A stretch of DNA of 40,589 bases, taken from Candidatus Melainabacteria bacterium (GTDB taxonomy: Bacteria > Cyanobacteriota > Vampirovibrionia > LMEP-6097). This document shows, in pieces, positions 37,919-38,894 of this stretch (its first letter is position 1; every line of letters starts with the position of its first letter). The notes under the pieces are model-generated. The model was given only the letters and a program-made list of their open reading frames with translations, did not search any database and was not told the DNA's origin. Position numbers and translations under genes: made by a program. The stretch covers positions 1 through 40,589 of the forward strand of contig JABHOV010000081.1 in the NCBI GenBank assembly GCA_018695135.1, written 5' to 3'.

Positions 37919-38551
37919 TCAAGCCAAAAAACTAGCTCTTAGACTCTCAATCATAGTTGCTGTTGCAAGATTGGATGTAGAACCAGGAGCAAAAGCTTTG
38001 AGCATATGTTCAAGGCTATTAATCTTGGATTTAATAGAATCATTGTATTTGTATTTTGCATGACGAGCAGCTTCTTTAATAGCCGCATTTATAAGTCCAC
38101 GTTGCTCACTAGCTTTTAAATCTTTGACAGTTGTCATCCAGATCTCTTCAAGCTTTGCTAGCTCATTTATAAATTCAAGTTGTTTTTCATTATGAACAAT
38201 TTTGGCTTCTAGGTCTTTAAGCATTTGAGTCGTCACTGGGTCTGAATTTAATTTAGTTAAAAACTTCATTAGTTTATCTATGTCTTTGGTTATAGATTTT
38301 TTAGATTTTTTGATTCGTTTTTCCAAGTTAGCAATTTCTTTACCGATTGATTTGTAATAATTAGAATAATCACTAAGATCATTCTCAATTTCAAAATCAG
38401 TAGAAGATTGAATATCTTGAATGTGTTCGCTACTTGATCTATCAAAGGCAATATCAATTTGCTCAAACAAAGTATTAATTTCAGAACTAAGTCCAGAACC
38501 TATATGTTCTTTAAATGCCTTAATTTCTGTAAATAGTGTTGAATTATGCAT
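37919..38551 (-). CDS. Unknown coiled-coil protein
   Basis: 210 residues, ATG seven bases behind TATTAA. Helical almost throughout: an N-terminal amphipathic helix (FTEIKAFKEHIGSGLSSEIN), then a long Lys/Glu coiled coil at about 65-145 with IGKEIANLEKRIKKSKKS, and a C-terminal Ala/Ser-rich tail. No signal peptide or membrane helix. Not recognised. It is close to the tRNA-derived repeat, which begins about 75 bases upstream of its start. Confidence 0.7.
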   Translation of the reverse strand: MHNSTLFTEIKAFKEHIGSGLSSEINTLFEQIDIAFDRSSSEHIQDIQSSTDFEIENDLSDYSNYYKSIGKEIANLEKRIKKSKKSITKDIDKLMKFLTKLNSDPVTTQMLKDLEAKIVHNEKQLEFINELAKLEEIWMTTVKDLKASEQRGLINAAIKEAARHAKYKYNDSIKSKINSLEHMLKAFAPGSTSNLATATMIESLRASFLA

Positions 38552-38625
38552 ATATACATTAATAGGCTAAGAAATCAAAGTTATCATTTGATTAAACAGA
38601 TAGAAAGTCAATAAATATTGTAAAA

Positions 38626-38833
38626 GTGGTGGTCAGAGGCATGGACATGAGCGCTAGCTCATGACAGACAAAAGGTCTACTGCATGGCAGTTCAATCCGG
38701 TATTAAGTAGTTTGTGAATAAGTGGTGGTCAGAGGCATGGACATGAGCGCTAGCTCATGACAGACAAAAGGTCTAATGCATGGCAGTTCAATCCTGTATT
38801 AAGTAATTTGTGAATAAGTGGTGGTCAGAGGCA
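38626..38833. repeat. 96-bp tandem repeat made from tRNA-Phe pieces
   Basis: Two full copies, 38626-38721 and 38722-38817, differ at three positions; a third copy starts at 38818 and after 16 bases runs into tRNA-Phe. Those 16 bases (gtggtggtcagaggca) are the complement of the tRNA 3' end with its CCA. Each copy also holds GGCAGTTCAATCC, the tRNA T-arm, on the opposite strand from the tRNA, and CATGAGC-gcta-GCTCATG, which matches the DNA next to the tRNA 5' end in inverted form. The unit is thus a chimaera of forward and reverse pieces of this tRNA gene. Confidence 0.85.
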
Positions 38834-38894
38834 GGATTGAACTGCCGACACGTGGATTTTCAGTCCACTGCTCTACCAACTGAGCTATCTGACC
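38819..38894 (-). tRNA. tRNA-Phe (anticodon GAA)
   Basis: 76 bases on the minus strand. Acceptor GGTCAGA pairs with TCTGACC, D-arm GCTC/GAGC, anticodon stem GTGGA/TCCAC with loop CTGAAAA (anticodon GAA), T-arm GGCAG/CTGCC with loop TTCAATC, discriminator A and an encoded CCA. All stems are complete, so it should be functional. It decodes UUC/UUU. The tandem 96-base repeat lies directly behind its 3' end. Confidence 0.95.

Follow-up and report, generated by a model that had tools for sequence, protein, structure and literature searches.

The tRNA-Phe gene in our window (the whole stretch of DNA analysed, 40,589 nucleotides long) is followed by two tandem units, each carrying an inverted copy of the tRNA's T-arm and closing with a direct copy of its 3′ end, which we regard as rtT-like tRNA-trailer units. 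On balance we lean towards the array encoding a trailer RNA that would be co-transcribed with the tRNA and carry a tRNA-like CCA end. The same anatomy recurs at other tRNA genes, its complementarity is specific to the tRNA which it flanks, and compensatory changes have occurred within it. The rtT-like design is far commoner in this bacterial class than would be guessed from E. coli alone, and the array represents a variant form within a known but little understood kind.

The tRNA is an intact tRNA-Phe(GAA) with an encoded CCA (38819..38894, minus strand; ARAGORN, and Rfam RF00005 at 71 bits), and as it lies on the minus strand the 96-bp units are its downstream flank. Unit 1 follows immediately (38723..38818) and unit 2, its tandem copy, lies beyond (38627..38722), both on the minus strand and detected by TRF and a repeat finder. 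An earlier note on this DNA had described two near-identical 96-base units, which is borne out by TRF (tandem repeat at 38624-38833, period 96, 2.2 copies, 97% match) and by the repeat finder (95% identity between units), whilst the third start of the repeat described there is tRNA-Phe's own 3′ end. Read along the tRNA strand, unit 1 consists of a 22-nt AT-rich linker (38797..38818), the inverted T-arm CAGGATTGAACTGCC (38782..38796), which is the exact reverse complement of tRNA-Phe nt 49-63, two hairpins, AGACCTTTTGTCT (38762..38774) and CATGAGC-TAGC-GCTCATG (38742..38759, predicted by folding and identical in sequence in genomes G001 and G004), and a closing direct copy of tRNA-Phe nt 62-76, TGCCTCTGACCACCA (38723..38737, 15/15 match). 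Unit 2 repeats this order on the same strand, with its inverted T-arm at 38686..38700 (one change, 14/15 match), the counterpart of AGACCTTTTGTCT at 38666-38678 (sequence and fold), the second hairpin at 38646..38663 and the closing copy at 38627..38641 (15/15 match). Counted from the tRNA, the exact 15-nt 3′-end copies, including CCA, occupy downstream positions 82-96 and 178-192. The inverted 15-base match between 38782-38796 and the tRNA at 38832-38846 is perfect, as had been claimed, with the distal unit matching 13 nt of it; with up to two mismatches allowed, the tRNA and the two units are the only places in the 40.6-kb window where this 15-mer occurs, against 0.06 occurrences expected by chance.

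Other parts of the earlier description fared less well. The 3′-end pieces with CCA are real, yet on the strand that encodes the tRNA (minus) they read as direct copies and not as complements, the T-arm alone being inverted. The supposed inverted 5′ acceptor and flank reduces to ca. 8 nt (AGCTCATG) matching the leader, and G004 conserves the hairpin bearing these leader-like letters although its own leader contains no such sequence. Reading the unit on the plus strand as a shortened tRNA was ruled out by the absent tRNA score, as neither ARAGORN nor the Rfam tRNA covariance model (E ≤ 5) found a tRNA in the unit; across the Rfam scan, only tRNA and tmRNA reached the cut-offs. The units thereby also differ from tRNA pseudogenes and tandem tRNA duplications, with which they share pieces copied from a neighbouring tRNA, in having no tRNA score and in containing inverted pieces and shared non-tRNA hairpins. 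The suggestion of an element able to multiply fits the tandem copy number alone; a dispersed element was rejected as the genome holds no second locus: matches to the 96-nt unit outside the tRNA-Phe locus were at chance level. The remaining suggestion, a source of tRNA-like RNAs, came closest of the three options offered, since the anatomy is like that of the E. coli tyrT/V repeats which release rtT, and since one design reappears at many tRNAs with changes that preserve its structure; any such function here is putative.

In E. coli, 178-bp repeats follow tyrV. The tRNA 3′ end recurs there exactly, over 19 nt, at 160-178, 338-356 and 516-534, and each unit runs from an inverted T-arm GGAAGGATGAGAAGC through AAGGTTCGA, an insert with TCGAGCGnnAGCGAG and AATCC to the acceptor strand. 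Like the Phe array, the tyrT/tyrV repeats are tandem units directly behind a tRNA, on the same strand, in which an inverted T-arm is followed by an inserted hairpin domain and an exact 3′-end copy with CCA closes the unit; the common block order is linker, inverted T-arm, direct T-stem piece, inserted hairpins and 3′ copy. The units differ in length (178 nt in E. coli, 96 nt here) and their hairpins are unrelated. The annotated E. coli rttR RNA (1287066-1287236, with tyrV starting at 1287244) terminates precisely at the first copy's CCA, and this, together with the shared block order, supports a trailer RNA behind tRNA-Phe. The likeness is one of design, a lesser claim than membership of the RtT family or common descent. 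The RtT model RF00391 matched nothing in G000, G001, G003, G016, G152 or G044 at E ≤ 10, where the E. coli control was matched, nor in the Phe array at E ≤ 5, which counts against a trailer RNA of this type. So far rtT has been regarded as an oddity found in the tRNA operons of E. coli and a few relatives, and its role in the stringent response is tentative. Two papers, both citing Bosl and Kersten (1991), call it a tRNA-operon by-product that may take part in that response (PMC4986893, PMC2965389).

At the tRNA-Phe locus of related genomes the structured parts are conserved whilst copy number varies, a different picture from the equal copy number with random drift that the earlier note had proposed as a refutation. 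G001, from the same genus, has one intact unit behind tRNA-Phe and a second split by an insert; the insert (L117) is ca. 110 nt long and holds two hairpins. G004, from another genus of the same family, retains the hairpin and the 3′-end copy with a different middle, and at the expected position of its inverted T-arm (L118) lies TCATTGAGAGGAGCTATGCGACGAAGCAATCC, which looks like a dispersed repeat. In G002, of the same genus, the downstream copy is absent and partial copies of the tRNA 5′ half occur upstream of tRNA-Phe (L119, two copies spaced about 240 bp apart). Assembly error, also raised earlier, is excluded because the pattern is present in several independent genomes. Unit 1 is identical at 92 of 96 positions between G000 and G001, compared with ca. 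50% identity in a gappy alignment of the DNA beyond the array, and this difference argues for a trailer RNA; the patchy presence of units among related genomes argues against it. Perfect matches to the motif GAGCTAGCGCTCATGTCCATG are confined to the tRNA-Phe loci of G000 and G004; the G001 locus has it with one mismatch, and matches elsewhere have three. Nothing resembling the Phe unit was found in viral contigs. Matches of the 18-mer GGATTGAACTGCCATGCA in Extibacter and a Verrucomicrobium were taken as chance, ARAGORN finding no tRNA-Phe in either 8-kb locus.

The array is one instance of a pattern found throughout the sampled part of its family. Searching the flanks of every tRNA for copies of that tRNA, with all others masked (in most genomes the tRNAs were sampled rather than all read), we found a 3′-end copy downstream or a 5′-end copy upstream at 46 of 123 tRNA genes in six genomes of the window's family; these make up most of the 51 loci with approximate end copies in the whole sample, for which permutation expects 0.62. 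Exact self-copies of at least 12 nt within 400 bp occurred at 54 of the 123 tRNAs (ca. 1.7 with permuted tRNAs), and in other families at 3/23 and 2/9 (f6), 0/17 (f3), 0/16 (f4, genome G011) and 0/7 (f2). Three other families gave 0/40, one G010 locus excepted, and sampled true cyanobacteria had no self-copies (0/24). Of the tandem arrays with a period of at least 50, 11 lay near tRNAs and 3 in the remaining DNA, which was about twice as extensive. Copies of the 3′ end lie downstream (R units) and copies of the 5′ end upstream (L units); the latter mostly extend to nt 17-19, many lie 74-92 nt upstream of the tRNA, and L units resemble mirror images of R units, an arrangement not predicted by a trailer RNA.

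One order of blocks is common to the short R units at six tRNAs (Phe, Trp, Asp, Ala, Cys and Arg) in three genera; the blocks were named by eye before testing, and their boundaries carry some observer choice. The order is linker, inverted T-arm, short direct T-stem piece, U-rich tract, hairpin and 3′-end copy, with CCA-to-CCA distances of about 90-101 nt. That the same anatomy occurs at all six tRNAs in several genera supports a trailer RNA. A hairpin GCGACY/RGTCGC is common to the Trp, Cys and Arg units. Long R units (G000 and G001) hold larger inverted tRNA parts and lie behind a terminator-like hairpin, so that co-transcription may be lacking at these other tRNAs, a point against a trailer RNA. 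Seven family genomes contain the sequence GACCCCCGATA four times in all, always in long units at tRNA genes (two at His, one each at Ser and Ala; L275, L276, L277 and L278). The tRNA-Cys trailers of G000 (L105) and G001 (L140) look like a degenerate full-length tRNA-Cys copy and do not exhibit the inverted-arm design.

The inverted T-arm and the short direct T-stem piece could also form an intrinsic terminator built from tRNA sequence, as in short units a hairpin such as AACCCgaGGGTT precedes a U-rich tract like CTTTTTTGT (Trp, with similar tracts in Arg, Ala, Cys and Asp). We consider this unlikely: the Phe stem is short and its tract is only CTTTTGT, a terminator scan between tRNA-Phe and the array was empty, and both the 3′-end copy and the units of sister family f4 would be left unexplained. 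As no terminator-like site parts tRNA-Phe from the array, the scan instead favours a trailer RNA.

In f4, a pattern derived from three units matched 31 of 60 genomes, with no matches for the reversed control. Most loci read lie ca. 130-330 nt behind a tRNA, many then followed by that tRNA's 3′ end; other loci have no tRNA nearby, one of them following tmRNA. Alignment and folding indicate an element of ca. 150 nt (L336-L365, L388-L416) with a helix of repeated GA/AG steps, in which 14 of 20 predicted pairs show two-sided changes. A covariance model (R1) detected 1-24 copies per genome in 32 of 117 genomes of the class, all of them f4. Of 19 covariance-model matches with an upstream tRNA (a few of which repeat loci of the earlier f4 set), 16 end in the 3′ end of that tRNA, compared with 2.4% for other tRNAs. 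The element has no Rfam family and looks like a structured RNA family missing from Rfam; a covarying structured version in a sister family supports a trailer RNA at the Phe array. An ATGAGAA loop and the TCGAGCGnnAGCGAG insert are common to the f4 element and E. coli tyrV. Against the same reading, R1 matched neither the window nor any of nine genomes of the window's family, and scored a non-significant 9.9 bits in E. coli.

The complementarity between trailers and tRNAs is specific. Of the 27 family units that have a downstream copy, 16 have a trailer whose best complement, out of all tRNAs sampled from the same genome, is its own tRNA (ca. 1.2 expected), a result in favour of a trailer RNA. 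Pairing was retained between orthologous units of tRNA-Lys in G000 and G001 (92% of pairs, against 37% for slid pairs, with nine pairs changed on both sides) and of tRNA-Cys in G003 and G006 (83% against 32%, with three two-sided changes), and the keeping of these hairpins likewise favours a trailer RNA. The Asn units exhibited 11 two-sided pair changes in an alignment in which only 62% of pairs survive, and the predicted pairs of Val and Thr L units were unconserved between orthologues. The compared genomes have different tRNA-Asn and tRNA-Cys sequences, and in each genome the inverted arm and 3′ copy track the tRNA found there. Such maintenance of pairing fits selection on pairing, and would also fit correction by gene conversion or fold-back copying.

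Fold-back copying is also the basis of the strongest rival to a trailer RNA, that the units are mutational scars, for which a function need not be assumed: on leaving the tRNA, a polymerase would fold back, copy one arm in the reverse direction and switch forward again, after which slippage would multiply the blocks. As single-stranded DNA, tRNA genes form hairpins, and only events sparing the tRNA would survive, leaving 3′ pieces downstream and 5′ pieces upstream. Its standing as the strongest rival comes from the mirror symmetry of L and R units and their patchy presence; the direct-inverted-direct order of blocks and the one tRNA-Cys trailer that is a degenerate full-length tRNA copy also agree with it, and its hairpins could stay paired by fold-back correction. 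Template switching of this kind would not readily account for non-tRNA motifs common to different tRNAs (the GCGACY hairpin, GACCCCCGATA at tRNA units only, and the f4 core), for the narrow spacings, or for 46/123 tRNAs in one family against 0/40 in three others bar the single G010 locus. We regard such scars as a possible but less probable origin; shared motifs and maintained pairs count against pure scars.

If the array does encode a trailer RNA, it would comprise a small structured RNA domain right behind the tRNA, with a copy of that tRNA's 3′ acceptor strand, CCA included, at its far end. The array would be transcribed with tRNA-Phe, the tRNA would then be cut out, and the tRNA-like end would mark the 3′ end of the leftover trailer, releasing a discrete RNA as for E. 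coli rtT. The inverted T-arm may permit an alternative fold of the precursor, in which the tRNA T-arm pairs with the trailer and the 3′ copy serves as acceptor strand, and slippage or unequal exchange between identical tRNA 3′ ends could alter copy number. In computed folds of tRNA-Phe with one unit, this alternative, in which the inverted copy is the T-arm's partner and the D and anticodon arms stay intact, lies 17.4 kcal/mol below the cloverleaf fold; shuffled spacers give a gap of 3.8 ± 2.2, and the larger gap of the real sequence supports a trailer RNA. The f4 units exhibit no excess fold-energy gap. The alternative acceptor pairing was dropped as evidence, as the shuffled-spacer control yields the copy-strand choice in 34.2 of 38 cases; taken alone that choice is uninformative, which weighs against a trailer RNA.

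Extending this to both flanks, tRNA genes of the class might carry cis elements on either side that copy one acceptor strand and an inverted arm of their own tRNA, coevolve with it and switch between the mature fold and a larger, alternative tRNA-like RNA, rtT being the single earlier example; we hold this general form only tentatively, and think it rather improbable. Having rtT-like anatomy at many tRNAs in an unrelated bacterial class provides dozens of natural variants for comparison, which reveal the parts changing together with the tRNA and make function or mutational origin directly testable. The occurrence of the design at many different tRNAs and the mirror-image form upstream set the window's family apart from E. 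coli rtT. We know of no report of the mirror-image form, and a literature search found no paper on tRNA-flanking repeats in this class.

A further proposal of the earlier note was an attachment-site array; the Phe array shares direct repetition of a tRNA 3′ end with tRNA-targeted integrative elements (attL/attR). On this view integrative elements would have inserted at the 3′ end, left the tRNA restored and later disappeared, with repeated 3′ ends as their scars. Another common integrase target is tmRNA, behind which one f4 copy lies, and some f4 copies retain a CCA missing from the tRNA gene. Direct repeats of this kind are the classical mark of integration (PMC4383910). This proposal accounts for the 3′-end repeats, but leaves unexplained the tandem period of 96, the conserved and shared hairpins, the tRNA-specific inverted T-arm and the 5′ copies that lie upstream of other tRNAs. 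The array holds no element and no nearby integrase: the genome's two integrase genes are on contigs C46 and C96, and the array's contig, C82, has no PF00589 match (in G001, G002 and G004 the locus was read over short flanks, so that relatives are partly covered). We therefore consider an attachment-site array quite unlikely.

Some smaller features were recorded alongside. In the window, a 210-aa reading frame without a Pfam family (37919-38551, minus strand) runs in the same direction as tRNA-Phe and starts 75 bp past the array, and a 15-bp tandem repeat of 12.7 copies (consensus AGCTGCCGCCGATAA) occupies the contig edge at 1-190. At f4 loci L361, L341 and L363 the 3′-end copy carries CCA and the tRNA gene does not, as though the copy were the older of the two. 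Three tandem units follow tRNA-Thr in G167 (L377, spacing 293 bp), and three follow tRNA-Arg in G152 (L379), where the spacing of 178-181 bp is near the 178-bp period of E. coli tyrT.
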